Assembly (NCBI GenBank): GCA_025357635.1
Contig: JANXOV010000142.1
Coordinates: forward strand, 1-64,000
Source of the DNA: Pseudomonadota bacterium
Lineage (GTDB): Bacteria > Pseudomonadota > Gammaproteobacteria > Steroidobacterales > Steroidobacteraceae
DNA: 64,000 nt
Direction: 5' to 3'
The notes under the pieces are model-generated. The model saw only the letters and a list, made by a program, of their open reading frames with translations. It was not told the origin of the DNA and made no database searches. Each line of letters opens with the position of its first letter. The stretch's first letter is position 1. Below, one piece after another: positions 268-41,567 of the stretch. Made by a program: the position numbers and the translations under genes.

Positions 268-1185
268 TCAGGTGTCGTAAATGGCGATGACCGCCGACTC
301 AGCGTCGCGTGTCGCCGCACGGAACATGCCTTGGCTATTGAATTGCATACTGATCGCACCGGAGTGGTCGACGGCGATGACGCCGCCTTCGCCGTTGATC
401 GCGGTGAGTTCCTGATGAACGACTTCGTGTACTGCGGTTCGCAGGTCGCGTCCGCCGAAGCGCATTCGCGCTGCGATGTCGTGTGCGACTGCTGCGCAGA
501 TGAACTTCTCGCCGTGGCCGGTCGCCGACACCGCGCAGGAGCGATTGTCGGCGTAGGTGCCGGCGCCGATGAGGGGCGAATCGCCGATGCGGTTGAAGCG
601 CTTGCCGGTCATGCCGCCCGTGGAAGTTGCCGCCGCGAGGTCGCCGTGCGTATCCACGGCCACTGCGCCCACGGTGCCGGTATGGGAAATGGTCAGCGGC
701 GAGAGTGTGCGATCACCCTCCAGAATGCGCTGCAGCTGCTGCCAGCGCGCCTCGGTCCGGAAATATTCCGGAGGCACGAACGCAAACCCCTGCAAAGCGG
801 CAAATTCCTCCGCGCCGGCGCCGCTGAGCATGACGTAGTCGGAATGTTCCATGACGCGGCGCGCCAGCGCGATGGGGTTGGCGATGCGAGTGAGGCCACA
901 CACGGCGCCGGCCGCCAGCGTCGCGCCGTTCATGATCGAGGCATCCAGTTCGTTGTGCCCGTCATGGGTGAACACGGCGCCGCGGCCGGCGTTGAACAAG
1001 GGGCAGTCCTCCAGCGCCACCACCGCCTGCGTGACGGCATCCAGACTCGTGCCGCCGCGCGCAAGAATCGTGCGCCCCGCCTCAAGGGCCTCGCGCAGGG
1101 CGGCGCGATACTCTCGCTCCATTTCGGTGCTCAACTCGCTGCGCGGCAGCGTTCCTGCACCACCGTGAATCGCCAATGCGTACAT
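268..1185 (-). CDS. iaaA: Isoaspartyl peptidase / plant-type L-asparaginase
   Basis: Ntn-hydrolase of the type 2 asparaginase family, expected to hydrolyse L-asparagine and isoaspartyl dipeptides after autocleavage. The 305-aa length suits the family. Visible landmarks are the N-terminal HGGAG (7-11), NAGRGAVFT (65-73), and the cleavage and nucleophile site GTVGAVA, where Thr171 would become the new N-terminus of the beta subunit. The conserved block GGMTGKRFNRIGDSPLIGAGTY follows directly. No signal peptide is seen, so it is probably cytoplasmic. The gene diverges from pyc, 49 bp away. AGGAAA lies 5 nt before the ATG as a plausible ribosome site. Confidence 0.93.
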   Translation of the reverse strand: MYALAIHGGAGTLPRSELSTEMEREYRAALREALEAGRTILARGGTSLDAVTQAVVALEDCPLFNAGRGAVFTHDGHNELDASIMNGATLAAGAVCGLTRIANPIALARRVMEHSDYVMLSGAGAEEFAALQGFAFVPPEYFRTEARWQQLQRILEGDRTLSPLTISHTGTVGAVAVDTHGDLAAATSTGGMTGKRFNRIGDSPLIGAGTYADNRSCAVSATGHGEKFICAAVAHDIAARMRFGGRDLRTAVHEVVHQELTAINGEGGVIAVDHSGAISMQFNSQGMFRAATRDAESAVIAIYDT

Positions 1186-1234
1186 TTCAATTTCCTAGCC
1201 TGAAAGTTCACAGCAAGGCTATCATCATTTCATC

Positions 1235-4696: not shown

Positions 4697-4723
4697 TACC
4701 TTAACACGGTGATTTTGACCGGT

Positions 4724-5866
4724 TCACGCGGCCGCTCTGGCGGCGTTGGATTCGGACAGCAGCTGCGGATAAGCGTGGCGCATTTTCTTGCGGGCCTTTT
4801 CGCAGTTGAACAACCATTTGATTTTCTCCCCGCTGGCATTGCGGCGTTTCTCCCAGATGGCGATCTCTGATTCAAGCTCTGCGCGTTGTTCGATGCGCCG
4901 GTCCAGACATTGTTTGCGCAGCACCCCGATCTCGATCTCCACCATGTTCAGCCAACTGGCATGCTTGGGGGTGTAGTGGAACTCAAGCTTGCTCAACACC
5001 CGCCGTGCCTCGGCCGGGGGGAAGCTGTTGTACAGCGCAGCCCCTGTGTGCGTGGAGAGGTTGTCCAGGATCACGCGGATTTTCTTCGCCCGCGGGTAAT
5101 GCCGATCCACCAGATCGCGCATACAGGCGGCAAAGTCTTGCCCCGTGCGCTGATCGGTGACCTTCACATGCCGCCAGGGACGGTGCGCATCGACCATGAT
5201 GAAAAGGTTCGCGGTGCCATTGCGCCGATATTCGCTATCGTAACGCTCGGCCTGACCGGGGAGCGCGGCGATGGGTGTGCGGACCTCGCCGATCAATTGC
5301 TGCGGGCTCTCATCAAAGCTCACCACCGGATGGCTTGGAGGCGGCTGCTCGGCATACAAATCCAGCACATCTTCCATCCGCGCCACATACTCCGCATCGA
5401 TCTTCGGGATGCACCACATCTTGCGTTGCCAGGGCTTCAACTCATTTGCGTGCAGCCGCCGGCGGATCGTTTCACTGGATAAAATACCGTGTTCGGTCAA
5501 CTCTAGCATCCGACCGGCCAGCAACTTCAAGGTCCAGCGCGCGCACCCGGCAGGGGCTTTGGAACACGCGGTGGCTACCAGCAGCGCCTCTTCCTGCCCG
5601 GAGAGCTTGCGCGGCGCTCCGGCCCTGGCCTCCTCGCTCAGAGCGCAAATCAAATTGCCCTCCACAAAGCGCCGCCGCGTCCGATAGACCGTGGATATCC
5701 CCACCCCGAGCGTACGCGCGATCCTCTCCTCCGCTTGACCCAAATCCGAGGCCAACAAGATCTGCGCCCGCTTCACCCGTCGTACCGCCTGACGCTTGCC
5801 GCTGAGTAAGCCGTTCAATTCCACCCGTTCTGCCTCGCTCAATTGCACCCGATATCGTACATTCAT
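4724..5866 (-). CDS. IS630-family transposase
   Basis: 380-aa DDE transposase. The start MNVRYRVQLSEAERV is preferred because the 33 upstream codons of the open frame do not resemble the family. An N-terminal helix-turn-helix region (roughly residues 1-115, including QAEERIARTLGVGISTVYRTR) binds the ends. The catalytic core shows SFDES, ILDNLSTH and SWLNMVEIEI, giving the Asp, Asp and Glu metal ligands. It is followed by the usual basic tail. The stop lies about 28 bp from the left inverted repeat. No frameshift is visible. Confidence 0.93.
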   Translation of the reverse strand: MNVRYRVQLSEAERVELNGLLSGKRQAVRRVKRAQILLASDLGQAEERIARTLGVGISTVYRTRRRFVEGNLICALSEEARAGAPRKLSGQEEALLVATACSKAPAGCARWTLKLLAGRMLELTEHGILSSETIRRRLHANELKPWQRKMWCIPKIDAEYVARMEDVLDLYAEQPPPSHPVVSFDESPQQLIGEVRTPIAALPGQAERYDSEYRRNGTANLFIMVDAHRPWRHVKVTDQRTGQDFAACMRDLVDRHYPRAKKIRVILDNLSTHTGAALYNSFPPAEARRVLSKLEFHYTPKHASWLNMVEIEIGVLRKQCLDRRIEQRAELESEIAIWEKRRNASGEKIKWLFNCEKARKKMRHAYPQLLSESNAARAAA

Positions 5867-5918
5867 CAACTTGCGCTCCGCGTCAAAATAGTGACGGGGA
5901 AAGAGCGGAGCAATTCTC

Positions 5919-6182
5919 ATGCCCAACAACATCCTGACATCAACACCGCCAAGCTTTACCTCCACTCAGGGTCAATACCTGGCCTTCCTCTATGCCTACA
6001 CCAAACTGAATCGTCGGCCACCGGCCGAAGCGGACTTCCGCGACTTCTTCGAAGTCTCCGCCCCTTCCGTGCATCAAATGATCCTCACCCTGGAGCGCAG
6101 CGGCTTTATCCATCGCACCCCCGGCGCCGCACGCAGCATCGCATTGCTCCTCGCGCCAGAATCTTTGCCCTTGCTGCGTTGA
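5919..6182 (+). CDS. LexA-like winged-helix passenger protein of the IS
   Basis: 87-aa protein transcribed divergently from the transposase and wholly inside the inverted repeats. The sequence TQGQYLAFLYAYTKLNRRPPAEADF followed by FFEVSAPSVHQMILTLERSGFI strongly resembles the N-terminal winged-helix DNA-binding domain of LexA, with no autoprotease domain. GGAG lies 9 nt before the ATG. It could repress transposition by binding the 52-bp gap between the two genes, or it could be a captured host domain. The fold assignment is by eye. Confidence 0.75.
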   Translation: MPNNILTSTPPSFTSTQGQYLAFLYAYTKLNRRPPAEADFRDFFEVSAPSVHQMILTLERSGFIHRTPGAARSIALLLAPESLPLLR

Positions 6183-6256
6183 TCCGCCCAACCGGTCATA
6201 ATCACCGTGTCGAGGTACTAGCGCCGCCGCGTCGGCAGCTGGAACAGAGTCTGGCC

Positions 6257-6387
6257 GGCGCGTGGGCGCGCGGTCAAGGCACCGTTTCGAAGCGGTCGGC
6301 TGCTAGCGCTCCATCCGCTCACCGCAAGCATCCAACCTCGCACTCAGCGCAGCCGGCGCTTCGAAGCGGCCGCGCTTACCACGCGCC
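6257..6387. repeat. Structured ~130-bp dispersed repeat, copy B
   Basis: Second copy of the repeat at 48-185. The outer stem is 6257-6264 with 6380-6387, the middle stem 6266-6270 with 6371-6375, and the inner stem 6282-6303 with 6349-6369, with the same bulged G (6295) and a 45-nt loop. It sits between the convergent 3' ends of pyc (beyond the IS) and the reductase gene. The loop keeps TAGCGC, TCCAAC and CTCAGC in common with copy A. Confidence 0.75.
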
Positions 6388-6448
6388 ACAAGCGCACCCG
6401 GACCCGGACCGGCACAGGCGATAACGCCGGAACATCGAAGCCCGGAAT

Positions 6449-7672
6449 CTAACCAGCGCGCACGGCATCCTTAAGCCCGATCTGCGGATTCGCCAGCTTC
6501 TCCAGGTCCATGAGACTGCGCTCGGCGATCAGCTTGCGTCCGGCCATGTAGTCCTTGGAATGATTGATGGTATCCACGGCCAGCAGTTCATTGCCTTTCA
6601 GGTAACAGACACTGAAGCTGCGCGCCGCCGGCTCGCCGCGCACGACGACGCGATCGTGATCCTGCGACAGCCCGACGATCAACAGCTTCAAATCGAATTG
6701 GTCGGACCAGAACCAGGGCACCTTGTCATGTACCGTGGGCTTGTCCAGCATGTTCAGGGCCGCCGTCCTGGCCTGCTCGAAGGCATTGTCGACGGATTCG
6801 AGGCGGACGCGCCGGCCGAAGCGCGGCGAGGGGTGATTGCAGCAATCCCCAGCGGCGAACACATGGGCGTCGCTGCTGCGGCAGAACTCATCCACGCTGA
6901 TGCCGTTGTCGCAGGCGATGCCGGCATCGCGCGCCAGTTCCACGTTTGGAACGGCGCCCACGCCGACGATCACCATGTCCGCTTCATGCTGTGAGCCGTC
7001 TGTGCACAGCACGCGCTCCACGCCACCGCGGCCCTCCAGGCTCGACACCTGCGTGTTGCACAGGATCTTGATGCCATGCCCGCGGTGTTCGCGCATGAAA
7101 AAATCCGACACAACCGGCGCCACCACGCGGTTCAAGGCGCGCTCCGCCATTTCCAGAATCGTGACATCGCAGCCCAGCTTCACCGCGGTCGCGGCGGTTT
7201 CCAGACCGATGTAGCCGCCGCCGATGATCACCACGCGTGCCCCCGGCTTGAGGTGCGCGCGGATGGCGTCGACATCGGCGATATTGCGCAGCGCATGCAC
7301 CCGTCCCAAGTCCGCGCCGCTGCAGGTGAGCATGCGCGGCCTCGCACCCGTCGCCAGCAGCAGCCGGTCGTAGTGCAGCGTTTCGCCGCTCGACAATTCC
7401 AGCGTGTGCTGCTCCGGGCGCAACCGTTGCGCGCGCGAATCAAGCCTCACCTCGATGCCATGTTCGGCATAGTAGGCGGCGTGGCGGAACAGCAGTCGGT
7501 CCGCGGGCATCTCGCCGGCCAGGTATTTTTTCGACAGGGGCGGGCGCTGATAGGGCAGCTGCGTTTCATCGCCGATCAGAACGAGTTTGCCGGCAAAGCC
7601 GTCGCGGCGCAGCGAGTCGATCGCCTGGGCGCCGGCCTGTCCGCCCCCCACGATCAGGAATGTTGAACTCAT
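6449..7672 (-). CDS. NAD(P)H-dependent ferredoxin/rubredoxin-type reductase
   Basis: 407-aa FAD/NAD-linked oxidoreductase of the group that reduces rubredoxin, putidaredoxin or dioxygenase ferredoxins. It has an N-terminal FAD-binding Rossmann motif (FLIVGGGQAGAQAID), a central NAD(P) motif (VVIIGGGYIGLETAATAVKLG, about 145-165), the ATGARPR turn, and VFAAGDCC near residue 275 as the second FAD contact. A C-terminal reductase dimerisation domain with PWFWSDQFDLKLLIVGL completes it. No partner ferredoxin or oxygenase gene is adjacent, so the electron acceptor is unknown. It diverges from the P-II gene. Confidence 0.88.
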   Translation of the reverse strand: MSSTFLIVGGGQAGAQAIDSLRRDGFAGKLVLIGDETQLPYQRPPLSKKYLAGEMPADRLLFRHAAYYAEHGIEVRLDSRAQRLRPEQHTLELSSGETLHYDRLLLATGARPRMLTCSGADLGRVHALRNIADVDAIRAHLKPGARVVIIGGGYIGLETAATAVKLGCDVTILEMAERALNRVVAPVVSDFFMREHRGHGIKILCNTQVSSLEGRGGVERVLCTDGSQHEADMVIVGVGAVPNVELARDAGIACDNGISVDEFCRSSDAHVFAAGDCCNHPSPRFGRRVRLESVDNAFEQARTAALNMLDKPTVHDKVPWFWSDQFDLKLLIVGLSQDHDRVVVRGEPAARSFSVCYLKGNELLAVDTINHSKDYMAGRKLIAERSLMDLEKLANPQIGLKDAVRAG

Positions 7673-7705
7673 GTTTTCCCCGGTTTGATCTGTAATGAGC
7701 CTGCC

Positions 7706-7724
7706 TGCACCAATGCGGGGCGCA
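7706..7724. promoter_or_regulatory. NtrC-like dyad upstream of P-II
   Basis: TGCACCA-N5-GGGCGCA matches the known NtrC enhancer dyad (TGCACCA-N5-TGGTGCA) perfectly in one half and 5 of 7 in the other. It sits about 150 bp before the P-II start, a typical enhancer distance. I could not find a convincing sigma-54 promoter (the nearest, about 7827-7841, lacks the GG and is one base short), so this is weak. Confidence 0.3.
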
Positions 7725-7834
7725 TCCTAACGTCCGCGCATTCCATCGGTGCACGGATATTACCAGCCGGAGGGCCAGAACCTTAACTCTCTGATACTGT
7801 GTGAGGGGGTAGCGAGAATGACTGATGCCATTAA

Positions 7835-8212
<378 letters not shown>

Positions 8213-8237
8213 GCACGGTCGCGGAGGTAAGCCGAGC

Positions 8238-9212
8238 ATGTCCAAAGCCATTCGTTTGCATCAGCCGGGCGGAGCGGAACAGCTGCGCTATGAAGAGGTC
8301 GATGTCCCCGCGCCGGCCGCCGGGGAAGTGCAGATCCGCCACACCGCGATCGGCCTGAATTTCATTGACGTCTATGACCGCACCGGGCTGTATCCCATGC
8401 CGCTGCCGGCGGTTCTCGGGCGCGAAGCCGCCGGCGTTGTCACCGCTGTCGGCTCCAAGGTCAAACAGTTGAAAATCGGCATGCGCGTGGCCTACGCGCT
8501 CAACTATGCCGGTTCGTATTGTGAACGGCGCAACGTCCCCGCCGAGCGCATGGTGCGCATCCCCGATACCGTCGGCGATGAGCAGGCGGCGGCGATGATG
8601 CTCAAGGGCATGACCGCTCAGTATCTGCTGCGCAGCACGTATCGGGTCAAGCGCGGCGAAACCATTCTGATTCACGCCGCCGCAGGCGGCGTCGGTTCGA
8701 TCGCGGTGCAATGGGCCAAGGTGCTGGGTGCGACCGTCATCGGCACGGTGGGGAGCGATTCCAAAGCGCAGATGGCCAAGGACTTAGGCTGCGATCACGT
8801 GATCGTCACCGCACGGGAGGACTTTACCGCCCGCGTCAGGCAGATCACGGCGGGAAAGGGCGTTCCGGTGGTCTACGACTCCCTTGGACGGGATTCCTTC
8901 TTCGGATCGATGGATTGTCTGGCGCCGCTCGGTCTAATGGTCACCTATGGAAATTCAACCGGTCCGGTGCCGCCATTCTCCGCGCTAGAGTTGAGCAAAC
9001 GCGGTTCGCTGTTTCTTACCCGGCCGGCGTTGTTTCACTACGTGTCGACGCCGCGCCTGCTGAACGCGTCGGCGCGGGAGTTGTTCGATGTCGTCGCCCG
9101 AGGGCAGGTAAAAATTTCCATCGGGCAGCGCTATGCGCTGGCGGATGCGGCGCAGGCGCATCGTGATCTGGAAGCCCGCAAGACCACAGGGTGCACGGTT
9201 CTCATTCCGTAG
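8238..9212 (+). CDS. Zinc-independent quinone oxidoreductase (QorA type)
   Basis: 324-aa medium-chain dehydrogenase/reductase of the NADPH:quinone reductase (zeta-crystallin) group. Starts at MSKAIRLHQPGG behind GGAGG (8224-8228); upstream codons overlap the P-II gene and are not conserved. The GroES-like half has LNFIDVYDRTGLYPMPLP, and the nucleotide-binding half has the AAAGGVGSIAVQWAK motif (about 150). The catalytic zinc ligands of alcohol dehydrogenases are absent. It probably protects against quinones by two-electron reduction. It starts 25 bp after P-II and could be cotranscribed. Confidence 0.9.
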   Translation: MSKAIRLHQPGGAEQLRYEEVDVPAPAAGEVQIRHTAIGLNFIDVYDRTGLYPMPLPAVLGREAAGVVTAVGSKVKQLKIGMRVAYALNYAGSYCERRNVPAERMVRIPDTVGDEQAAAMMLKGMTAQYLLRSTYRVKRGETILIHAAAGGVGSIAVQWAKVLGATVIGTVGSDSKAQMAKDLGCDHVIVTAREDFTARVRQITAGKGVPVVYDSLGRDSFFGSMDCLAPLGLMVTYGNSTGPVPPFSALELSKRGSLFLTRPALFHYVSTPRLLNASARELFDVVARGQVKISIGQRYALADAAQAHRDLEARKTTGCTVLIP

Positions 9213-9257
9213 AAATGCGTGCGGCGTTGCCGCCATTGAACAGGTAGCCTTGAGCGC

Positions 9258-10934
9258 ATGCGGTTAGCAGGCAGGATCGGTTGGGCATTGGTTGCGAGCG
9301 TGGCGCTGTCGTGCGCCTCGCCAGTGCGCGCCGCGAAACTCACCGACACCGAGCAGACACGTATCGATGAGCCCAGGCCGCCCGGCCTGGCCAGCGACGA
9401 ACAGATGCTTGCCGAGGGCGCGGTGATCGGCAAGGTCGTGCTCGATATCCGACAGATATTCGATGAATCCGATCGACGCGAGAACAACGGCCTGTATCGC
9501 CTCGCCAACGATCTGCATATCCGCACCAAGAATTTCACCATCGATGCGCAGCTGCTGTTCAAGGTGGGCGATCGCTACGATCCCAAAAAGCTCGCTGAGA
9601 CCGAGCGCAATCTGCGCGCGTTGCGCTTTATCTATGACGCGCGCGTCGTACCGGAAAAGTATGAGAACGGCAAGGTCGAGGTCAGAGTCATCACCAAGGA
9701 CGTCTGGACCTTGAGTCCGGGCATCTCCTTCGGGCGCTCCGGCGGCACCAACAACACGCGCTTTGAATTGGAGGACTCCAACCTGTTCGGCTGGGGCAAG
9801 AAGATACAGATCGGTCACGGCAGCAACGTGGACCGCACCAGCGACAGCATCGATTATGAGGACCCGAACCTGTTTGGTTCGCGCTGGACGCTGGGCGCCT
9901 CCTATGCCAACTCCAACGACGGCTCGAACCGGGGCATCGCCGTAGGGCGACCGTTCTATTCGCTGGATGCGCCGTGGAGCACCACGTTCAAGGCGCTGCA
10001 GTTCAAGCGCACGGTCTCGCGCTACAGCCAGGGAGAAATTGCCGATCAGTTCCAGCGCGATGAAACCTACTACGAAGCCAGCGGCGGCATCTCCAGCGGC
10101 CTCATCGAGGGTTGGACCAAGCGCTGGACGGGCGGCGTTCGCTATGACCGGAACGTGTTTGCCCCTGTCGACACCCCGACGCCCGCCGCCATGCTGCCGC
10201 CCGATCGCACGACCGCGTACCCGTATCTGGGCATCAGCCTGATTCAGGACGATTTCCGCAAAGCCGGCGATCAGAATCAGATCGGCCGCACCGAAGACCT
10301 CACCTTTGGCACGCAGATGGGCCTGGAGTTGGGCTTTTCGAATTCCGCCTTCGGTGCGACCCGCAACGCGGCCATCGTCAACGCCAACGCGCAGAAGGGT
10401 TTCCAGCTGTCGAATTCGACGCAGCTGTTCCTGACCTCAACCTTCAATACGCGCATCGAAAGCGGCAGGGCCCGCAATCTGATTCTCGACTCAACCGCCA
10501 GCTATTACTGGCGGTGGCGCGCGGACCGCGTTTTCTACGTGTTTCTGGGCGGCACCGCGACCACCGCGCTGGATCCGGAAACGCAGCTGCTCATCGGTGG
10601 GGACAGTGGTCTGCGCGGCTATCCGCTGCGCTATGAGGCGGGCACCTCGCGCGCACTGCTCACCGTCGAGCAGCGCTTTTATACGCAATGGTACCCGTTC
10701 CGTCTGGCGCGCTTCGGCGCCGCAATTTTTGCCGATGTGGGACGCACCTGGGGCTCGGACTCCGTCGGCAACAGCAATGCGGGTTTGTTGAGCGATATCG
10801 GCTTCGGCCTGCGGTTCGGCAACACCCGCTCCGGGCTGGGCAACGTGCTGCACATCGATTTTGCGTATCCGTTGAACAATGACCCGGGCATCAAGAAATT
10901 CCAGGTGCTGGTGGGCACCAAGCAGAGCTTCTAG
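9258..10934 (+). CDS. BamA/TamA-like outer-membrane beta-barrel (surface antigen D15 family)
   Basis: 558 aa with an N-terminal signal peptide (LVASVALSCASPVRA, cleaved about residue 26). Residues about 60-150 resemble a single POTRA-like region (FTIDAQLLFKVGDRYDPKKLAETERNLRALRFIYDARVV). The rest is beta-strand-rich, with the barrel-closing hallmark GGDSGLRGYPLRYEAG near residue 450 and a C-terminal aromatic Phe as expected for BAM substrates. It is shorter than BamA (five POTRA domains), so it is more likely a specialised translocation or assembly protein than the essential BamA. Neighbouring genes give no functional hint. Confidence 0.85.
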   Translation: MRLAGRIGWALVASVALSCASPVRAAKLTDTEQTRIDEPRPPGLASDEQMLAEGAVIGKVVLDIRQIFDESDRRENNGLYRLANDLHIRTKNFTIDAQLLFKVGDRYDPKKLAETERNLRALRFIYDARVVPEKYENGKVEVRVITKDVWTLSPGISFGRSGGTNNTRFELEDSNLFGWGKKIQIGHGSNVDRTSDSIDYEDPNLFGSRWTLGASYANSNDGSNRGIAVGRPFYSLDAPWSTTFKALQFKRTVSRYSQGEIADQFQRDETYYEASGGISSGLIEGWTKRWTGGVRYDRNVFAPVDTPTPAAMLPPDRTTAYPYLGISLIQDDFRKAGDQNQIGRTEDLTFGTQMGLELGFSNSAFGATRNAAIVNANAQKGFQLSNSTQLFLTSTFNTRIESGRARNLILDSTASYYWRWRADRVFYVFLGGTATTALDPETQLLIGGDSGLRGYPLRYEAGTSRALLTVEQRFYTQWYPFRLARFGAAIFADVGRTWGSDSVGNSNAGLLSDIGFGLRFGNTRSGLGNVLHIDFAYPLNNDPGIKKFQVLVGTKQSF

Positions 10935-11431
10935 TCCTCGCCGCGTGCGGCCGCCGCCTTGCGCCGCCGGGAATACAGCAGCAAGAATCCGATGCAGACG
11001 GCAAAATTCAACACCCACCACATCAGCTGGCGCGCCTGCCCGCTGTCAGTCACCTTTTTAGTCACCGCGGGCGCATCCAGAGTACCCACCAGTTTCTCGG
11101 TCTCTCCGGCGCGTGTCACGAGAAACGCGACGACCGCCGGACCTGAGGCGGTCAGCTCCGCACTTTTCACCTCATAGCTTCCGTCCGTCTGCGCCACCGC
11201 TGTCAGACTCAGCGCGCGGATGGTGACTTTCACGGCGGCATCGTGCACCGGCGCATTGTCCAGCGCGCGGCTCAGGTGAATGACCATGCGGTCGGCCGTG
11301 ACGACACCCACCGCCACGAAGGAGTTGGACTTTGCCTCGACGCGCGCCGGTTGCGGCACGCAATGAGCGGCCTGGGCCCAGCCCAGCGCCAGGAGCGCAG
11401 CGGCAGCAAGGCGCGCAGAACCGCTCGTCAC
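10931..11431 (-). CDS. Exported membrane-anchored protein of unknown function
   Basis: 166 aa. I start it at the GTG at 11431, which overlaps the stop of the upstream gene (GTGA), implying translational coupling. Upstream codons of the open frame lie inside that gene. It has a signal peptide (about 1-27), a beta-rich domain (about 30-120) and a C-terminal transmembrane helix (QLMWWVLNFAVCIGFLLLY) followed by a basic tail, so it should face the periplasm from the inner membrane. I do not recognise the central domain. Its 3' end overlaps the barrel gene by 4 bp, convergently. Confidence 0.7.
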   Translation of the reverse strand: MTSGSARLAAAALLALGWAQAAHCVPQPARVEAKSNSFVAVGVVTADRMVIHLSRALDNAPVHDAAVKVTIRALSLTAVAQTDGSYEVKSAELTASGPAVVAFLVTRAGETEKLVGTLDAPAVTKKVTDSGQARQLMWWVLNFAVCIGFLLLYSRRRKAAAARGED

Positions 11432-11949
11432 AATAGAAATCCGGACGCGCCGATGAGGGTTCCGGTCGCCGCCGCGATGAGACCGAAGACCGGGAAAAAC
11501 GCCTTGCGCGCCAGGAAGTACAGCGAACACAGCACCAGCCCCAGTTCCAGCAGGCCCTCACCCAGATCGAAACGCAGCGCGCGTGCCTCTGCGGCCTTGG
11601 TTTCATCGTCCTTGCCGCGTGCCTGCTTTTGAATCTCCAGCGCATCCTGGGCGTAATGATCGCGCGCCGCCGCCAGCTTCTTGACGGGCGCGGCCGCCTT
11701 ATCTTCCGGCGCCACGGCGTTGAGCAGCGTGATGCCCACTTCGCTCATCTGTTCGCGGGTTTTTTTTGCCTGGTAGTAGGTCCACTGATCATTCGCCTCG
11801 GTGCGATGAATGACCGCATCGGTGTGCGCCCGGTGCGAGGAGATCGTGACGACCGACAATAAGACGCCGACCACGCCGATCAATACGCCGACGCGCCGGC
11901 TGCTGGGATCGGTCGCATGCTCTGCGTGATGAATTTCGATTTCGGCCAT
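11428..11949 (-). CDS. DUF4337-type membrane protein
   Basis: 173 aa. A first transmembrane helix (VGVLIGVVGVLLSVVTI, about 22-38) precedes a charged periplasmic or cytoplasmic stretch with HRTEANDQWTYYQAKKTREQ, the hallmark of the DUF4337 family. Two more helices lie at the C-terminus (GLLELGLVLCSLYFLARKAFF and FGLIAAATGTLIGASGFLL). The function of the family is not established. It is the first gene of a two-gene unit and diverges from metY. Confidence 0.8.
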   Translation of the reverse strand: MAEIEIHHAEHATDPSSRRVGVLIGVVGVLLSVVTISSHRAHTDAVIHRTEANDQWTYYQAKKTREQMSEVGITLLNAVAPEDKAAAPVKKLAAARDHYAQDALEIQKQARGKDDETKAAEARALRFDLGEGLLELGLVLCSLYFLARKAFFPVFGLIAAATGTLIGASGFLL

Positions 11950-12034
11950 AAGATTTTAGATGGTTCCTTTGAATGCTGCGCCCGCGAAGCCGCTAGTTTA
12001 GTCGGTTTCGCCGGCCACCATGCGCAGCGCATCG

Positions 12035-26858: not shown

Positions 26859-27020
26859 GTCCCTTGCGCCCGCCAGCTCGAACATCACCCGATTCAGCCG
26901 AAGTGTAGCGCAAGTGCCATTTCTTGCAGGCGATGAGCTGTTTCGGGGAGGAATTGCGCATTACTTGGTAGTTGAGCGTCAATTCGACCGCTCATCGCGG
27001 TCATGGGCGGGAGAATCAAA

Positions 27021-29294
27021 ATGAAAAAACCATTCGCAACAATCCTGGCGGCGCTGCTGCTCGTCTCAATCGGTTCGGGCCTCGCGCTCGCAGTCGTGCC
27101 TGTGCCTGGCCCTGCTCCAGTCCTCGCGCCCGTCACGATTAACGACAGCGCGGGCGATCAGTTCGACCCGCATGTGAGCGGTAACTTTGCCGCCTATACC
27201 GATGATATAGGGATTCGCTATTACAACTTCGCGACCGCCACCGATGCTCCGATTCTGATGGGCCTCGCCGCGCGTGACCTGCTCTCGGATGTCAGCGGCA
27301 GCAAAATCGCCTTCTCGCGGGTGATCGTCGGCTCCGGGACTTCGGTAATGGTGTTCGATGCCGCGAACCCCGCCGACCCGGCCGTCGAAGTCAATCCAAC
27401 GGCCGGCCCGAATCGCATTGGCGCGGCGATCGGCGGCAACACGGTTGCCTACATCGACTTCGGTCTGCAGGCGAATGGAGAACTGGTGGTCACCGATCTG
27501 GCAAGCGCCGTGTCGACCCGGATCACCGATGACACGGCAATCGACGGAAATCCGTCGGTGTCTCCCAACGGGAACGTGGTCGTGTGGGAGCACTGCGCCA
27601 CCTCGCTCGCCAACTGCGACATTTGGCAGGCCGTGAAAACCGGAACCACCTGGACTAAAAGCGTCGTCTCCGACTCGGCCAGTCCCGAGGCCAACCCGGA
27701 CACCAATGCAACGCTGGTCGTCTATGATTCGCAGCGCGGTACAAACCCCGACATCTTCTGGCGACCCGTCGCCGGAGGCGCCGAGGTGCAGCTGGAGTTG
27801 CCTGGCCTCGAGGGCAATCCGAGCATCGCCGGCGACTACATCGCCTTCGAAAGCCGAGCTTCGCTGCTGGATTCCGCGGACATCTATGTCTACGACCTGG
27901 TCTCCAATCAGATTTACAAAATCACCGACACGGTGGACGTCAACGAACAGCTCAACGACATCACCGTGCTGCCCGATGGCCGGGTGCGTGTGGTGTGGGC
28001 GAGCGACGAGGTTGGTTTCGCTGAGCGCAACATCAAAGGCGCCACGTTCAAGCTCAATCGCCTGCCCGTGGCGAACGCGGGGCCCGATCAGAATATTTAC
28101 CTCGGACAGACGGCGGCTCTGAACGGCGCGGCCTCCTCCGACGCCAATGGCGATGTCTTGACCTATGCATGGACGCTGGATGTCGCGCCGCCCACCAGCA
28201 CTGCGGTACTGGTCAACCCAAACTCGATGACGCCGCACCTGACGCCGGACGTGGTGGGTCCGTATCATTTGTCGCTGGTCGTGAACGATGGCACCGGCAA
28301 CAGCGCGGCTTCCACCGTCGCCATCAACGTATTTGAGAATCTGCCGCCCGCCGCCGCCGCCACCGGCAACATGGCGGCATCGGTTGCCGGCAGCGCACCC
28401 CTGGCGGTGGTTTTCGATGCCGGCGCCAGCCAGGATCCGGAGGGCAGTCAGCTGACCTATGTCTGGGACTTTGGCGATCAGGCCAGCGGTGCGCAAAATT
28501 CTAGCACGCAGGTGTCCATGCTTCACACCTACGCCGCGGCAGGCAGCTACACGGCCACCGTGACGGTGACCGACAATCTTGGCAAAACCGATCAAGCCTC
28601 GGTCGCGGTTACCGCAACGGCTGCCAATGTGGCGCCGGTGGCATTGCCGACGGCCACGCCCAATCATGGCGCGGCAGCGCTCGAGGTTCAGTTTGCGGCG
28701 AACGCAACCGATGCGAATCCGGCCGACGTATTGAGCTATAGCTGGAGCTTCGGGGACGGCTCGCCGCTGTCGACACAGGCCAACCCGCTGCACAGCTACC
28801 TCAACGCAGGCACTTACCATGCAACGCTATCGGTGTCAGACGGCGTGAACCCACCGGTTTTGGCCAGTCTGACCATCAGTGTCGGCTCGGCGCTCACCAT
28901 CGAGGTGACCGAAGCGAAAGTCGAGCGCGGCGAGAAGGGCAAGGTCGAAGGCAGAATCAGCATGAAGGCCAACTTTCATTTTGCCGGCGTGCCGGCCGCG
29001 GCCGATGTCATCCGGGTGAAGTTCGATGGCTTCACGCTGTTGGAAGTGCCGTTTGCGAGTTTCAAACCAGAGTCTGCGGGCAAGTATGAGTACGAGACAA
29101 AAACCACCGAAGGACAGATTGACTTCAACCGCGGAACGATCAAGGTGGCGCGCCACAAGATGCTGACGAGTGGCATCGATAATTCCAACGGCATCGACGT
29201 CGAAATCAGCTTCGGCGCCGCGACCGGCACGGATCACTTCGATATGACGGGAGAAAAGGGGAGGCGCGACTGCGATCTATCGCACCGGCGGTAG
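27021..29294 (+). CDS. Exported beta-propeller and PKD-repeat protein
   Basis: 757 aa from MKKPFATILAALLLV with GGGAG 9-10 nt upstream. Signal peptide about 1-28. Residues about 35-345 contain TolB/WD-like blades (repeats around GDQFDPHVSGNFAAYTD, EANPDTNATLVVYDSQRG, EGNPSIAGDYIAFESR). Three PKD-like Ig modules follow (AGPDQNIYLGQTAALNG; VVFDAGASQDPEGSQLTYVWDFGD; LSYSWSFGDGSPLST). A final beta domain (about 620-757) ends in an unusual basic tail. It is probably an extracellular binding or adhesion protein. Adjacent to the divergent ECF sigma gene. Confidence 0.85.
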   Translation: MKKPFATILAALLLVSIGSGLALAVVPVPGPAPVLAPVTINDSAGDQFDPHVSGNFAAYTDDIGIRYYNFATATDAPILMGLAARDLLSDVSGSKIAFSRVIVGSGTSVMVFDAANPADPAVEVNPTAGPNRIGAAIGGNTVAYIDFGLQANGELVVTDLASAVSTRITDDTAIDGNPSVSPNGNVVVWEHCATSLANCDIWQAVKTGTTWTKSVVSDSASPEANPDTNATLVVYDSQRGTNPDIFWRPVAGGAEVQLELPGLEGNPSIAGDYIAFESRASLLDSADIYVYDLVSNQIYKITDTVDVNEQLNDITVLPDGRVRVVWASDEVGFAERNIKGATFKLNRLPVANAGPDQNIYLGQTAALNGAASSDANGDVLTYAWTLDVAPPTSTAVLVNPNSMTPHLTPDVVGPYHLSLVVNDGTGNSAASTVAINVFENLPPAAAATGNMAASVAGSAPLAVVFDAGASQDPEGSQLTYVWDFGDQASGAQNSSTQVSMLHTYAAAGSYTATVTVTDNLGKTDQASVAVTATAANVAPVALPTATPNHGAAALEVQFAANATDANPADVLSYSWSFGDGSPLSTQANPLHSYLNAGTYHATLSVSDGVNPPVLASLTISVGSALTIEVTEAKVERGEKGKVEGRISMKANFHFAGVPAAADVIRVKFDGFTLLEVPFASFKPESAGKYEYETKTTEGQIDFNRGTIKVARHKMLTSGIDNSNGIDVEISFGAATGTDHFDMTGEKGRRDCDLSHRR

Positions 29295-35920: not shown

Positions 35921-36010
35921 ATGGGCTCCTGCATCCGATCGCAGCCCTGATTCGTATACCCCTCGAATCAACTGGCAGCGATGCCGTAACAACATTTGCA
36001 GGAGAAACTC

Positions 36011-37600
36011 ATGTCCAGGATTAAATGGGCGGCTGCGGCAGCTCTCGCCGTGCCGATGCTCGCCTTCGCATCGAGCCACCGCGAGGCGCCGAACATCACC
36101 CGTCTGCCCACGCTCGACAGCACTGACTTCTATCTCTTCAACAGCTATGAACCCGGACGCAGCGGCTACGTCACGCTGATTGCCAACTACATCCCGCTGC
36201 AGGACCCCTATGGCGGTCCGAATTATTTCGCGCTCGACCCCGCCGGCTTGTACGAAATCCACGTCGACAGCGACGGCGATGCGAAAGAGGACCTGACCTT
36301 TCAGTTCCGCTTCACCAATACGCTGGCCAACAACAACAAGGGACTCACGCTCAACATCGGACCTGCCGGCCAGCAACAGGCCGTGGCCGTGCCGCTGAAA
36401 AACATCGGATCGATCAGTGCCAGCGACCAGTCGGCGCTCAATTTCAAAGAAAGCTACACGCTGACCGTGGTGAGCGCAGACCGGCGCAAGGGCCAGGCCC
36501 AGCCCGTCACCAACGCCGTCAGCGGTGAAGCCACGTTCGGCAAGCCCTACGACTATGTGGGTCAGAAGAGCCTCGGAGACGCGAACGCCTATGCCGCTTA
36601 CGCGCAGAAGTTTCTGTACTCCATCAACGTGCCGGGTTGCGCATCGCCAGGGCGCGTATTCGTCGGTCAGCGCAAGGAAGGCTTCGTGGTCAATCTGGGA
36701 GAGACCTTCGACCTCGTGAACAACGTGCCGGTGGAAGGCGACAGCGCTCCCGGCGCGGGCGATGGCGGCGGCTTTCCCGGCGGCATCACGCAGAAGGCCT
36801 CGCACAATGAACTGACGGACAAGAACGTCACCTCATTTGCATTGGAACTGCCGGCCGCCTGTCTCAAGGGCAGCGGCAATGGCGTGATCGGCGCCTGGAC
36901 CAGCGCCAGCCTGCGGCAGGTGCGGGTGCTGAATCCAAAGGCAACCTTCGCCAAGCCTGAGGTCAATGGCGGCGCTTACACACAAGTCTCGCGCCTGTCC
37001 AATCCGCTGGTCAACGAGCTGGTCATCGGCATTCCCGACAAGGACCGTTTCAACAGCAGCCAGCCCAAGGATGATGCGCAGTTCGCCACGTACGTCACCA
37101 ACCCGACGCTGCCGGCGCTGCTCGACGTGCTGTTTCGCGATGCGGTCAACACCACGCTTGGCGCAAACATTCCTAATCTTGCGCCGCAGAACTTTCCTCG
37201 CACCGATCTGGTGACGGCGTTCCTCACCGGCTTTCCCGGCGTGAATCAGCAGTCCAAAGTGACGCCCTCGGAAATGCTGCGGCTCAATACCGCCATCGCC
37301 GCGACGCCTGCCGCTCAGCAGAGCGCATTCGGTGTGGCCGGCAACGATCTGGCCGGATTCCCCAATGGCCGCCGGCCCGGCGACGACGTGGTCGACCTCG
37401 CATTGCGCGTGGTCATGGGACGGTTGTGCTATCCGATTCCCGTCAACGGCGTGGACACCGATCTGGGCCTGTGCAAGCCGGCCGACGCACCCGTGGGCAA
37501 CGTGCCGTTCACCGACGGCGCACCGGTCAGTGCGGCCGACTTCGACACGCAGTTCCCGTACCTGAAGACTCCGTTGGCCGGCTCGCCCGGCTCGATGTAA
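36011..37600 (+). CDS. Exported DUF4331 protein
   Basis: 529 aa from MSRIKWAAAAALAVPMLAFASSH, with AGGAGAA 6 nt upstream. The mature protein begins SHREAPNITRLPTLDSTDFYLF, the hallmark DUF4331 N-terminus (SHREAP...D.tDfYlF). Several conserved blocks follow (DLTFQFRFTN; FVGQRKEGFVVNLGETFDLVN; NPLVNELVIGIPDKDRFN). Function of the family is unknown. First gene of a four-gene unit with a lipoprotein, a TPR protein and a HupE-like membrane protein. Confidence 0.9.
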   Translation: MSRIKWAAAAALAVPMLAFASSHREAPNITRLPTLDSTDFYLFNSYEPGRSGYVTLIANYIPLQDPYGGPNYFALDPAGLYEIHVDSDGDAKEDLTFQFRFTNTLANNNKGLTLNIGPAGQQQAVAVPLKNIGSISASDQSALNFKESYTLTVVSADRRKGQAQPVTNAVSGEATFGKPYDYVGQKSLGDANAYAAYAQKFLYSINVPGCASPGRVFVGQRKEGFVVNLGETFDLVNNVPVEGDSAPGAGDGGGFPGGITQKASHNELTDKNVTSFALELPAACLKGSGNGVIGAWTSASLRQVRVLNPKATFAKPEVNGGAYTQVSRLSNPLVNELVIGIPDKDRFNSSQPKDDAQFATYVTNPTLPALLDVLFRDAVNTTLGANIPNLAPQNFPRTDLVTAFLTGFPGVNQQSKVTPSEMLRLNTAIAATPAAQQSAFGVAGNDLAGFPNGRRPGDDVVDLALRVVMGRLCYPIPVNGVDTDLGLCKPADAPVGNVPFTDGAPVSAADFDTQFPYLKTPLAGSPGSM

Positions 37601-37610
37601 GGAATCTGCC

Positions 37611-38144
37611 ATGCACAGATCAATACGAATGGCATTCTGGTCGGCGCTGACGCTGGCCGCTGCTGCAGGCCTCGCGGCCTGCGGCGGCGGCTCCACGCCG
37701 AAAAATGCAACGCCCACCATCGCGGGCATTGCGGACCAAAGCGTGGAACAGGACACGCCGACCAATGCACTGCCCGTGATGGTGTCGGATGCGGAAACCC
37801 CGGCGGACCAGCTGCAGATCACGCTGGCCAGCAGCGACCTTGCGCTGATACCGGTATCGGGGCTGGTTCTAAGCGGCACAGGAGCCTCCAGAACGCTCAC
37901 TGTCACGCCAGCCAGCGGCGCGACCGGCACGGCCACGGTGAGTCTGGTGGTGATCGACAACAACGGTGCGTCGACGACCGGAACCTTCAAGCTCACTGTC
38001 AGTCCGGTGCTGGCGCAATTTTCGACTCTCACCGAGTCGCTGTTTGCGAAGGACGCAACGCTGGATCCGCAGCGGGTGGACAACGTGACCTTCACCTTCG
38101 ATGCGAACGACAACCCGGCCGCGTTCGACGCGTTGTTTCAGTAG
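37611..38144 (+). CDS. Lipoprotein with Ig/cadherin-like fold
   Basis: 177 aa. Lipobox LAAC at about residues 21-24 after a hydrophobic stretch, then GGGS and a beta-rich domain (TIAGIADQSVEQDTPTNALPVMVSDAET, then VSLVVIDNNGAS). It resembles one module of the cadherin-like or PKD-type repeats. Starts 10 bp after the DUF4331 gene. Probably an outer-membrane partner of it. Confidence 0.72.
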   Translation: MHRSIRMAFWSALTLAAAAGLAACGGGSTPKNATPTIAGIADQSVEQDTPTNALPVMVSDAETPADQLQITLASSDLALIPVSGLVLSGTGASRTLTVTPASGATGTATVSLVVIDNNGASTTGTFKLTVSPVLAQFSTLTESLFAKDATLDPQRVDNVTFTFDANDNPAAFDALFQ

Positions 38145-38153
38145 GAGCGCGAC

Positions 38154-39284
38154 ATGACTCGAGGCTGGATCGCGGGCTGGCTGCTGTTGGGTGCGCAGAT
38201 TGCGCACTGCGCGCCGGTGCGGCCCGTCGATCCGGCCCTCGAACTGGCGCGCGATCTGCCTGCCTATCGGGTGCCGCGCGGCGTGGCGGTGGATGCCGCC
38301 GCCGCCGTGGTGCAGGCCCGTTTGCTCATCGACGAAGGCCGGCGCCGCGCAGACATCCGCGCCTTCGCCTACGCCGATACGGTGCTGGCGCCGTTTGCGC
38401 CTCAAGCGGCCACGAACGCGCCGCTGGCGCTGCTGCTCGCCGACATCCATCAATACCGGCATGATTTCGACGGCGCCGCACAGTTACTGGATCAAGTGCT
38501 GGCCCACGATGCACATGACTCCAACGCGCGCCTGATGCGCGCACAGGTCCGCATTGCCCAGGGCAGAGGAAGCGAGGCGCTGCGCGATTGTCTGAACCTC
38601 GTCGGGCGTGAAGCGGCCTGGGTGTGGAGCGCCTGTTCCGCGCAAGCCTATGCCATCAGCGGACGGCTGTCGGATGCGCAGCGCCTGCTGGACACCACTC
38701 TGCGCGGCCAGGAACTCAGGGGAGCGCGCGGAGCCTGGGTGGCAGGCATCATGGCGCAACTCGCCGCGCAACGCGGGGATCGTGTTTCCGAAGAGAACTG
38801 GCTGCGACGCGCGCTCAGCGCCGATCCCGACGATCACGTCGCCGCCATCGAACTTCTCGACCTGCTCAACGCCAGCGGCCGGCAGGCCGAGGCGTTGCAA
38901 TGGCTGCGCAGCCGGCCCGCGAGCGATGCCTATCTGATCCGCAAGGCGCAGGCACTGGAGTCCGTCGATGCTGCACAGGCGCAGGCCGTGATGAATGAAA
39001 TGCGGCGGCGTTTTGCGGAAAGCGACGCGCTCGGAGAGCGTTCGCATCTGCGCGAGCGCGCCGACTTCGAACTGCGCTTTGGCGATGCACGCGCAGCGCT
39101 TGCGCACGCGCAGGAGAATTTTCGAACGCAGCGCGAGTTGACCGATCTGCGCCTGCTGCTGCAGGCCGCAGCCGCCGCGCGCGATCCGGCCGGTGGGCGG
39201 GCAGCGTTGGCATGGCTGCGCCAAACACGCGCGCAGGATGCGCAGGCGGTGAGTGCCGCGAGCGCGCTCGGCGGTGCGACGTGA
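38154..39284 (+). CDS. Exported TPR-repeat protein
   Basis: 376 aa with an N-terminal signal (about 1-19). Helical repeats throughout: LALLLADIHQYRHDFDGAAQLLDQVLAHDAHDSNARLMRAQVRIAQGRGSEAL and others fit the TPR pattern. Periplasmic scaffolding role is inferred. Starts 9 bp after the lipoprotein stop and overlaps the next gene's GTG as GTGA. Confidence 0.8.
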   Translation: MTRGWIAGWLLLGAQIAHCAPVRPVDPALELARDLPAYRVPRGVAVDAAAAVVQARLLIDEGRRRADIRAFAYADTVLAPFAPQAATNAPLALLLADIHQYRHDFDGAAQLLDQVLAHDAHDSNARLMRAQVRIAQGRGSEALRDCLNLVGREAAWVWSACSAQAYAISGRLSDAQRLLDTTLRGQELRGARGAWVAGIMAQLAAQRGDRVSEENWLRRALSADPDDHVAAIELLDLLNASGRQAEALQWLRSRPASDAYLIRKAQALESVDAAQAQAVMNEMRRRFAESDALGERSHLRERADFELRFGDARAALAHAQENFRTQRELTDLRLLLQAAAAARDPAGGRAALAWLRQTRAQDAQAVSAASALGGAT

Positions 39285-40399
39285 GCCGCGCGCGATCCAT
39301 CGTCCTGGCCGTCGCGTGGATGCTGTGCGCCGCCGCGGCATCTGCGCATGGCACCAGCCGCAGCTATCTGAGCGCCGAGCCGGCCGACTCCGGCGGGCAC
39401 CGCGCGGCGCAATGGGAGGTGGCGCTGCTGGATCTGGCGGTGGTGCTGCCGCTGGATGAAGACGGCGATCACCGCATTGTCTGGGGCGAGATCCTCGCGC
39501 AGGAGACGCTCATCGCATCCATGGTGCACGCCCAGCTGCGTTTCAGCGATGCGGCCGGTGACTGCCGCACCGAGGTGGCGCCGCTGATGATCAACTGGCA
39601 CGGCGAACAGGCCTACGTGGTCGCACCATTGCGCCTCGCCTGCGCAGGACAGTCCGGAACGCTGGCCGTCACTTACGGATTTCTCAACGGCATTGACGGC
39701 TCGCACCGCATGCTGGTGCGCATCGGCGATGCGTCCGTCGTGCGCACGCTCGTGGCGGTTCCGGGAGAGCGGCGCGAGATCGGCGCAGCGCATGCCTCGG
39801 GCCGCGTCGAATTCATGCGCTATCTCAAAGAGGGCGCACATCACATCTGGATCGGCTACGACCATCTGGCGTTCCTGCTCGCCTTGCTGCTGCCCGCGGT
39901 GCTGCGTCGCGTGGGCAGCCGCTGGCAGCCGGTCTCGCAGCTGCGCGATGCGGCGACCGAGACGCTGAAAATCGTTTCCGCCTTCACGCTCTCGCACTCG
40001 ATCACGCTGGCGCTGTCGGCGTTGGGCTGGGTGCGGCCGCCGGCGCAGGCGATTGAGGTCGCCATCGCATTGTCGGTGGCTGCGGCAGCGGCGCTTAACC
40101 TGGCCCCAAAATGGAACCTGCGCGGCGCCTGGCTTGCGTTCGGATTCGGTTTCATTCACGGCTTTGGGTTTGCCAATGCGCTGTCCGATCTGGGCCTGAG
40201 CCGTGGCGATGTCGTGCTGCCGCTGCTGGGTTTCAACCTGGGGGTCGAGATCGGCCAGCTGGCAGTGGTTGCCGCCGTGTTGCCGCTGCTGTTCTGGTGG
40301 CGGCTGCGCCCCGTGTACGTGTCGCGCTGGCTGCCGGCGGCATCCTGCGCCATCGCCGCCGTGGCCTTGTACTGGACGCTGATCCGCTGGCCGCATTGA
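39281..40399 (+). CDS. HupE/UreJ-like membrane protein
   Basis: 372 aa from a GTG overlapping the upstream stop. Signal peptide about 1-22, a periplasmic beta domain (HGTSRSYLSAEPA.. to about 185), then about six helices with the family signature FMRYLKEGAHHIWIGYDHLAFLLALLLPAV and FTLSHSITLALSALGWV and FIHGFGFANALSDLG. HupE/UreJ relatives are linked to metal (Ni, Co) uptake; this longer type with a periplasmic domain is uncharacterised. Last gene of the DUF4331 operon. Confidence 0.82.
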   Translation: MSRARSIVLAVAWMLCAAAASAHGTSRSYLSAEPADSGGHRAAQWEVALLDLAVVLPLDEDGDHRIVWGEILAQETLIASMVHAQLRFSDAAGDCRTEVAPLMINWHGEQAYVVAPLRLACAGQSGTLAVTYGFLNGIDGSHRMLVRIGDASVVRTLVAVPGERREIGAAHASGRVEFMRYLKEGAHHIWIGYDHLAFLLALLLPAVLRRVGSRWQPVSQLRDAATETLKIVSAFTLSHSITLALSALGWVRPPAQAIEVAIALSVAAAAALNLAPKWNLRGAWLAFGFGFIHGFGFANALSDLGLSRGDVVLPLLGFNLGVEIGQLAVVAAVLPLLFWWRLRPVYVSRWLPAASCAIAAVALYWTLIRWPH

Positions 40400-40439
40400 A
40401 CACCGGCTTGATTCCGGTGCGAATTCAGAGCCTATCCGT

Positions 40440-40445
40440 TAGGCT
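40440..40445 (+). promoter_or_regulatory. TAGGCT hexamer before the ECF gene
   Basis: TAGGCTTTGCGGTGA recalls the elements before ilvB and the symporter. Here the hexamer is 10 nt from the ATG and the following GTG is out of frame. Confidence 0.35.
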
Positions 40446-40455
40446 TTGCGGTGAG

Positions 40456-41076
40456 ATGCCGATCAAAGCGCAACGCGGCGGGCGCGCCGCCCCGAACCTC
40501 GCCATTCCAGCCCGGATGGATGGCGGCGATCTGGCTCGTCTCATGAGCCGGATCGCCGTCGGCGACAAGATCGCGCTGTCGAGCCTTTATGAATCCACGG
40601 TCGCGCAGGTCCTGGCCATGGCCCGCGCCGTGCTGCGGTCCAAGGAGGACGCCGAGGAGATCGTCTGCGATGTGTACGTGCATGTGTGGCAGCGCGCCTC
40701 GGACTTCGACGCCGGCCGCGGCAATGTCATGGGGTGGCTGCTCATCATGGCCAGGAATCGGGCAATCGATCGCATCCGGCGGCGGCGCAATAGCGTATCT
40801 TTGGATGATGAACGCGAAGCTGGACTTGCCTCGAGCCTGGTCAGCGCCGAACCCGGCCCGGATGAAGTCCTGTCGCAGTTCCAATCGGGAAGCGCCGTGC
40901 ACCGCGCGCTAGCCGCGCTCACGCCGCTGCGCCGCCGGCTGCTGGGACTGGCGTTTTTTCGTGGCTTGAGCCATCAGGAGATAGCCGAATCGCTTGGCAT
41001 GCCGCTTGGCACGGTCAAATCCCACGTACGCCGCGCGCTGAACGCCCTGCAAACGGCGCTGGCGGCTGAATCATGA
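40456..41076 (+). CDS. ECF sigma factor (ChrR-regulated type)
   Basis: 206 aa from MPIKAQRGGRAAPN; upstream codons run into the HupE-like gene. Region 2 ALSSLYESTVAQVLAMARAVLRSKEDAEEIVCDVYVHVWQRASDFD.. and WLLIMARNRAIDRIRRR, region 4 RRRLLGLAFFRGLSHQEIAESLGMPLGTVKSHVRRAL. The gene is followed immediately by a cupin of the ChrR anti-sigma type, as in RpoE-ChrR pairs responding to singlet oxygen or peroxides. Its target may include the DUF4331 operon. Confidence 0.9.
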   Translation: MPIKAQRGGRAAPNLAIPARMDGGDLARLMSRIAVGDKIALSSLYESTVAQVLAMARAVLRSKEDAEEIVCDVYVHVWQRASDFDAGRGNVMGWLLIMARNRAIDRIRRRRNSVSLDDEREAGLASSLVSAEPGPDEVLSQFQSGSAVHRALAALTPLRRRLLGLAFFRGLSHQEIAESLGMPLGTVKSHVRRALNALQTALAAES

Positions 41077-41567
41077 AATCGCGCACCCGCAACAAGCCCG
41101 CCGCAGCCGCGGATGTCATTGATGCCGCCACGATGGAGCGCATGGCGGCGGCCATTGCGCCGGCCGAATTGTCGCAGCGCGATCGCGAGTCGCTGCACGA
41201 ACGCATCATGTCGCGCATTTCAACGGCGCCGCCGCCGCGCACCTACACTGTTCGCGCCAACGAGGGCACGTGGCTGCCGGCGGGGCCCGGAGTGGAGCTG
41301 AAGGTGCTGCGCATGGACCGTGAGCACAACAGCCAGACCATCTTGATCCGCATGCAACCCGGTGCGCAGATCGTCCCGCATCCTCACAATCAGGAAGAAG
41401 AATGCCTGGTGATGGAAGGCGAGATCCTCATCGGCGAGCATCGCGTGCGGCAGGGCGACATGCACATCGCCATGCCCGGCGCCGAGCATCCGCCCATCAT
41501 TGCACCGCACGGCGCGCTGCTGTGCATCCGTTCGGAAATCCCGCCGCCGCATTTTCAAATCGCGTAG
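41073..41567 (+). CDS. ChrR-type cupin anti-sigma factor
   Basis: 164 aa, ATG overlapping the sigma stop (ATGA). The N-terminal half is a short anti-sigma-like helical segment (about 15-50). The C-terminal cupin (VELKVLRMDREHNSQTILIRMQPGAQIVPHPHNQEEECLVMEGEI) carries HPHNQEEE metal-ligand residues. Note that the N-terminal zinc motif HxxxCxxC of classical ChrR is not seen, so it is an atypical member. Probably sequesters the sigma factor until a signal acts on the cupin. Confidence 0.82.
   Translation: MKSRTRNKPAAAADVIDAATMERMAAAIAPAELSQRDRESLHERIMSRISTAPPPRTYTVRANEGTWLPAGPGVELKVLRMDREHNSQTILIRMQPGAQIVPHPHNQEEECLVMEGEILIGEHRVRQGDMHIAMPGAEHPPIIAPHGALLCIRSEIPPPHFQIA

Follow-up and report, generated by a model that had tools for sequence, protein, structure and literature searches.

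ECF sigma factors that control the handling of metals in the cell envelope are a known kind of system, of which the metal-responsive CnrYXH and CorE are examples. The locus described here lies in a window of 64 kb (the whole stretch of DNA that was analysed) and is unlike these two systems in that neither a CnrX-like sensor nor a C-terminal Cys-rich domain was noted, and the anti-sigma types are unrelated. Other described systems resemble it in part. The SigK-RskA (ECF18/ECF19) surface-protein regulons (PMC7509140) share with relatives of our module the RskA_C anti-sigma factors and the expression of secreted proteins from a conserved promoter, and among the named NCBIfam models SigK comes closest to the window ECF; however, the partner in the window is a soluble cupin, the ECF falls in a separate clade, and the targets are DUF4331 and Ang-1/HupE proteins rather than MPT70/83. 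In SigmaE-ChrR (ECF11; PMC6852236) the gene for a cupin anti-sigma factor lies directly 3' of the sigma gene, an arrangement that is predicted in the window too, where the cupin ligands are also kept. The window protein nonetheless differs in having no ZAS domain, its promoter motif is GMATCY-N16-CGTAT, and its targets are not those of the core sigmaE-ChrR regulon as named in that paper. The ZrgABCDE zinc uptake system of Vibrio (PMC9817125) includes a protein, ZrgA, whose fold resembles the HupE periplasmic domain, and a DUF3299 (ZrgE family) gene is located two genes upstream of DUF4331 on the Marinobacter plasmid pHP-187; that system uses an ABC permease and Zur control, whereas the module has a HupE permease and ECF control.

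The membrane component of the locus is most readily compared with the Ang-1 HupE/UreJ-2 proteins (9GCE; PMC12537917), with which it shares the two-domain layout, a predicted mature N-terminal histidine and the HupE/UreJ-2 membrane domain, although in the Rheinheimera group of modules the domain stands alone and the permease is absent. The 9GCE structure is a Cu-bound Ang-1 domain that binds Cu2+ with a Kd of 74 nM and Ni2+ with a Kd of 220 nM through its N-terminal histidine, and the text of that report mentions neither DUF4331 nor sigma factors (PMC12537917). The gene content of the module and the exchange of anti-sigma factors under one promoter appear to be undescribed in the literature searched, which yielded no paper on DUF4331 and none on the module.

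The features of the locus are as follows.

35931..35957, + strand: predicted ECF-dependent promoter GCATCC-N16-CGTAT, preceding the DUF4331 operon, with the top matrix score in the 64-kb window
36011..37600, + strand: DUF4331 secreted protein, 529 aa, ATG start, PF14224 (E 1.8e-148), predicted mature N-terminus Ser-Ser-His
37611..38144, + strand: lipoprotein with a Big_9 Ig-like domain, 177 aa (Pfam)
38154..39284, + strand: exported TPR protein, 376 aa (Pfam)
39281..40399, + strand: periplasmic domain modelled as Ang-1 (anglerase), fused to a HupE/UreJ-2 permease, 372 aa, GTG start, PF13795 (E 1.3e-47), predicted mature N-terminal His23
40456..41076, + strand: ECF sigma factor, 206 aa, ATG start, in the cupin-partnered clade (Pfam, NCBIfam, tree)
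41073..41567, + strand: cupin protein, 164 aa, predicted anti-sigma factor, PF12973 (Cupin_7, ChrR cupin-like domain; E 1.3e-17)

The DUF4331 and lipoprotein genes are separated by 10 bp and the lipoprotein and TPR genes by 9 bp, the TPR and HupE genes overlap at GTGA, and a 56-bp gap precedes the ECF gene, which overlaps the cupin gene at ATGA. The genes, coordinates, gaps and GTGA overlap given in the initial annotation are exact in the sequence and its families are confirmed by Pfam, with which NCBIfam agrees for the module genes; the computation supports the operon layout. The DUF4331 protein spans PF14224 end to end (profile positions 1-421 of 421, 495.7 bits), the ECF consists of sigma-70 regions 2 and 4 only (PF04542 at residues 44-111 and PF08281 at residues 147-198 of 206), and HupE_UreJ_2 (PF13795) occupies residues 181-341 of 372, C-terminal of the periplasmic domain. 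We think it rather probable that the DUF4331, lipoprotein, TPR and HupE genes form an operon controlled by the adjacent ECF, with an envelope function directed at a transition metal, likeliest Cu or Ni; the best reading of the module is ECF-controlled envelope acquisition or buffering of such a metal.

The conservation of the gene set was examined in 83 loci, comprising 79 with close DUF4331 relatives from a scan of species genomes and four longer stretches from the family and order to which the window belongs. ORFs were labelled with profile HMMs derived from the proteins encoded in the window, together with two relatives, and genes within 7.5 kb of DUF4331 were taken as its neighbourhood. 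In this set, which was selected by similarity to the window DUF4331, a TPR gene is present at 67/83 loci, a HupE-like gene at 65/83, an ECF gene with an RskA or cupin partner at 58/83, and a TonB receptor gene at 30/83; when the Rheinheimera group (16 loci) is removed, the corresponding counts are 52, 50, 43 and 15 of 67. A second set, whose selection was independent of similarity, came from an even draw of 274 gammaproteobacterial genomes, 25 of which carry DUF4331. The 26 loci read from these, several of which end at contig boundaries, include 18 with TPR, 16 with HupE and 12 with the ECF pair. The gene set recurs in Gamma- and Betaproteobacteria with its order mostly kept, and recurs partially elsewhere, and because of this recurrence the grouping exceeds chance.

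The metal assignment draws on the HupE protein, whose AF2 model has a pLDDT of 90. With this model, Foldseek returned 9GCE as the top PDB match (E 2.4e-5, probability 1.00) with a moderate TM score of 0.53 by target length and about 11% identity across the structural alignment, and the next matches were the zinc-binding ZrgA and PA4063; 9GCE was not found from HupE by a sequence-profile search of the PDB. The residues at the predicted cleavage junction, A22-H23, are invariant in the HupE alignment (25 sequences), the AxA|H pattern is found by a simple rule in 77/82 HupE sequences, and most of the alignment has an EF-hand-like D-x-D-x-D loop. Even the Ang-1 proteins do not all conserve Asn41, which is the second Cu ligand in 9GCE. 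Modelling places the periplasmic part of HupE with the Cu/Ni-binding Ang-1 (anglerase) domains, with a predicted mature N-terminal histidine, and the description of the long HupE form in the initial annotation as having no known function is out of date, Ang-1 proteins having been described in 2025 (PMC12537917). Relatives in Rheinheimera and Idiomarina encode the domain by itself, as a protein of 140-206 aa without the permease, and this stand-alone form weakly resembles DUF6702, one tested member of which binds Ni tightly. The ZrgA-like fold neighbours of the HupE domain bind zinc, which tempers the assignment to Cu or Ni.

The DUF4331 protein has a similarly conserved N-terminus, with an AxA-type cleavage site before XXH in 103/104 family members and a conserved predicted junction of A|SSHREAP, at an end where AF2 confidence is low. 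The mature protein probably starts with Ser-Ser-His (NH2-X-X-His, ATCUN type), which is a potential Cu/Ni chelator. PDB sequence searches with DUF4331 gave no match, and a moderate model (pLDDT 67) matched general Ig-like sandwiches only, so we claim no fold. We also entertain, more tentatively, the idea that DUF4331 is a new secreted protein that binds Cu or Ni through its N-terminal X-X-His and passes the metal to the anglerase-HupE permease, and that its promoter has been taken over by RskA and cupin sigma pairs in different lineages while the targets stayed constant. The analysis supplies DUF4331 with a candidate regulator and promoter and with a biochemical role that can be tested, and the recently described anglerase permeases are placed in a defined regulon.

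In the mechanism that we propose, the cupin protein, with its metal-binding cupin site, would keep the sigma inactive until a signal in the cytoplasm (redox or the state of the metal) freed it, and the freed sigma would transcribe the DUF4331-lipoprotein-TPR-HupE genes from the GCATCC-N16-CGTATA promoter at 35931. The lipoprotein and TPR protein would act as envelope partners and the HupE part would move metal over the inner membrane, with a TonB receptor perhaps covering the outer membrane in many relatives. The window operon contains no TonB receptor gene, and the protein in this genome that best matches the Rheinheimera receptor is 33% identical to it. Fec-type surface signalling was considered and rejected, as the two TonB receptors scanned consist of plug and barrel only, with no N-terminal signalling domain. 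A Pfam scan of 137 flanking ORFs revealed no dominant metal-resistance family, and its sole metal hint is DUF4198, a family of Ni-binding proteins (PMC12537917) encoded close to five DUF4331 loci.

An alternative direction of transport would make the module a metal efflux or detoxification system in which excess Cu or Ni is bound in the periplasm. This is consistent with the observation that in Sphingobium sp. ba1 exposed to excess Ni a HupE/UreJ-domain gene shows the strongest up-regulation (PMC5557971), and anti-sigma control is often a stress answer. We consider it unlikely, as the HupE of Rhizobium is a permease for Ni uptake according to work cited in PMC12537917, TonB receptors, which import and thereby suggest uptake, accompany many of the modules, and genes for P-type ATPases or RND efflux do not recur near modules among the top families of the flanking-ORF scan.

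The anti-sigma partners are of two types. Most relatives have a gene for a membrane RskA-type protein (RskA_C, PF10099) after the sigma gene, but the partner in the window is a soluble cupin in which Pfam detects no RskA_C domain, and cupin partners are also found in Steroidobacter L012 and in L029, L036, L069, L126-L128, L139 and L146. In a tree of 76 ECFs, 11 cupin-partnered ECFs form one clade (support 99/92) with the window ECF next to those of L012 and L029; the RskA-partnered ECFs are outside this clade, although a single split by partner type is weakly supported (69/41). Across gammaproteobacterial genomes RskA_C occurs in 15/22 with DUF4331 and 23/230 without (Fisher p 3e-9), or in 15/25 with every DUF4331 genome included (p 4e-8); for both comparisons the genome overlap is estimated and related genomes are non-independent. 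In the sample, an ECF-cupin pair adjoins the module at five loci, all of which are in genomes without RskA_C. The window genome has both a cupin and an RskA protein, and the RskA-linked ECF matches the module ECF of the family less well. The type of putative anti-sigma factor is interchangeable under one promoter, being RskA in most relatives and a cupin in the window's clade. This would be a natural case of one promoter and target operon served by two anti-sigma sensors, and a comparison of the two could reveal the signal.

We infer that the window cupin is the anti-sigma factor of the adjacent ECF because of the ATGA overlap, the recurrent pairing and its homology. Its match to ChrR models begins at position 54 and takes in the last part of the anti-sigma domain and the cupin domain, and in the alignment the protein retains the pattern H-x-H-x3-E...H (HPHNQEE...H), whose residues are the Zn ligands in the ChrR cupin domain. 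Both features would also fit a ChrR-type (ECF11) module that its sigma switches on in response to oxidative stress or singlet oxygen and that is not a metal system. This seems improbable to us: the ZAS motif, whose zinc residues in ChrR are His6, His31, Cys35 and Cys38, is absent from the window cupin, which has no cysteine in its first 58 N-terminal residues, the operon lacks any gene for oxidant defence, the HupE domain has a metal-carrier fold, and most relatives use RskA rather than a cupin. The initial annotation had suggested a metal- or oxidant-responsive system, and whereas the metal half is favoured by the Ang-1 model, the DUF4331 N-terminus and the frequent TonB receptor, the oxidant half has only the ChrR likeness of the cupin in its favour.

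A word-pair count, an unbiased search for spaced words in the 340 bp 5' of DUF4331, returned ATCCG-N15-CGTA and overlapping words at up to 20/81 loci, compared with at most 5 in shuffles, and from this result a loose motif, [GC][AC]ATC[CT]-N15-17-CGT[AT], was written with sequences already inspected. Counted in this loose form, the motif GMATCY-N16-CGTAT is present 5' of DUF4331 at 63/82 loci, with 1.3 expected from shuffles and 2.2 from random regions, and at 46/65 loci outside the Rheinheimera group. Among sampled module loci nearly half have no detected motif, and it is seen at one of four plasmid loci, possibly since three of these belong to more distant lineages. With a matrix made without the window, the window site (35928-35960) has the best score, 20.9, on both strands of the 64 kb; the second-best, 17.8, falls within the ECF coding sequence, and the third is 12.1. 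The exact motif has seven matches in the window's own genome, and the window site is the sole one outside a long ORF; the number of other matches fits chance, and we claim no wider regulon.

The initial annotation had proposed that the sigma controls the module, a link that it would have regarded as refuted if the module were widespread without the ECF pair and shared no promoter match with it. Modules without an adjacent ECF and anti-sigma pair are in fact common (25/83 survey loci and 14/26 sampled loci), but the motif is kept at 18/24 such loci tested outside the Rheinheimera group. Similarly, the matrix scan finds no motif in the 56-bp gap 5' of the window's ECF gene, although in relatives the loose motif lies ahead of the ECF gene in 23/53 cases. 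Fifteen genomes chosen for having no labelled adjacent ECF all carry a homologue of the module ECF, which in six betaproteobacteria shares 69-78% identity with the module ECF of Duganella; in one of these six, a Herbaspirillum (G315), the ECF in fact adjoins the module. In Acidovorax an ECF-RskA pair is located away from the module, and the exact motif is found close to where its ECF gene starts; in another genome (G169) a loose motif lies 135 bp 5' of the ECF gene. The presence of these homologues elsewhere in the genome, some behind the motif, supports a putative sigma-promoter pairing retained across lineages, also in trans. Control of the module by the sigma is thus supported by the recurrent linkage, the common motif 5' of DUF4331, and the homologous ECF genes of genomes without an adjacent one.

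That the adjacent ECF is a chance neighbour in the window genome, with a different regulator driving the operon, we regard as very unlikely even though 25/83 modules have no adjacent ECF, the window ECF has no motif in its own upstream gap, and the genome contains further ECF genes and an RskA protein (C113), since Steroidobacter L012 repeats the identical order DUF4331-TPR-HupE-ECF-cupin with motifs ahead of both DUF4331 and the ECF gene, and nothing else in its own genome matches the module ECF of a family member nearly as well as the window ECF does (E 1.7e-31, versus 1.1e-20 for the next).

At the downstream end of the locus, a gene for a DctA-like SDF transporter starts 27 bp 3' of the cupin gene; a homologue is present in only two survey sequences, and we do not count it as a module gene. 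The lipoprotein of the relatives is frequently shorter than that of the window.

Within the window, the second-ranked match to the motif of the predicted ECF-dependent promoter falls inside the ECF sigma factor coding sequence, 272 nt 5' of the cupin start, and could be either an internal promoter or mere chance. The Acidovorax ECF-RskA pair, which is located in trans, is adjoined by a second exact motif that is divergent and directed toward a neighbouring gene.

40769-40801, + strand: second-ranked match in the window, GCATCC-N16-CGTATC
L182 6201, - strand: divergent exact motif beside Acidovorax ECF-RskA
L183 6105, - strand: divergent exact motif beside Acidovorax ECF-RskA

Modules also occur on plasmids. 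That on the 792 kb plasmid replicon of Pseudoalteromonas sp. CuT4-3 (L187) has the complete order ECF, anti-sigma, DUF4331, Ig-like, HupE; that on Marinobacter adhaerens plasmid pHP-187 (L188, region 470-12000) is preceded on its 5' side by genes for a PhoD-type phosphatase, a metallophosphoesterase, a DUF3299 (ZrgE family) protein and a PKD-domain protein. Upstream of the window module lies:

27003-29294: gene for a PKD-domain-like secreted protein

DUF4198 proteins with the N-terminal sequence AH[DE]FWLQP are found near DUF4331 in Alphaproteobacteria and Granulosicoccaceae (L033, L034, L035, L042, L048), and no HupE gene was detected at these five loci. Rheinheimera-group modules carry the Ang-like periplasmic domain alone, without the permease fusion, followed by a TonB receptor:

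L006-L010, L015, L017-L019, L022, L025, L026, L031, L032: loci with lone Ang-like domain and TonB receptor
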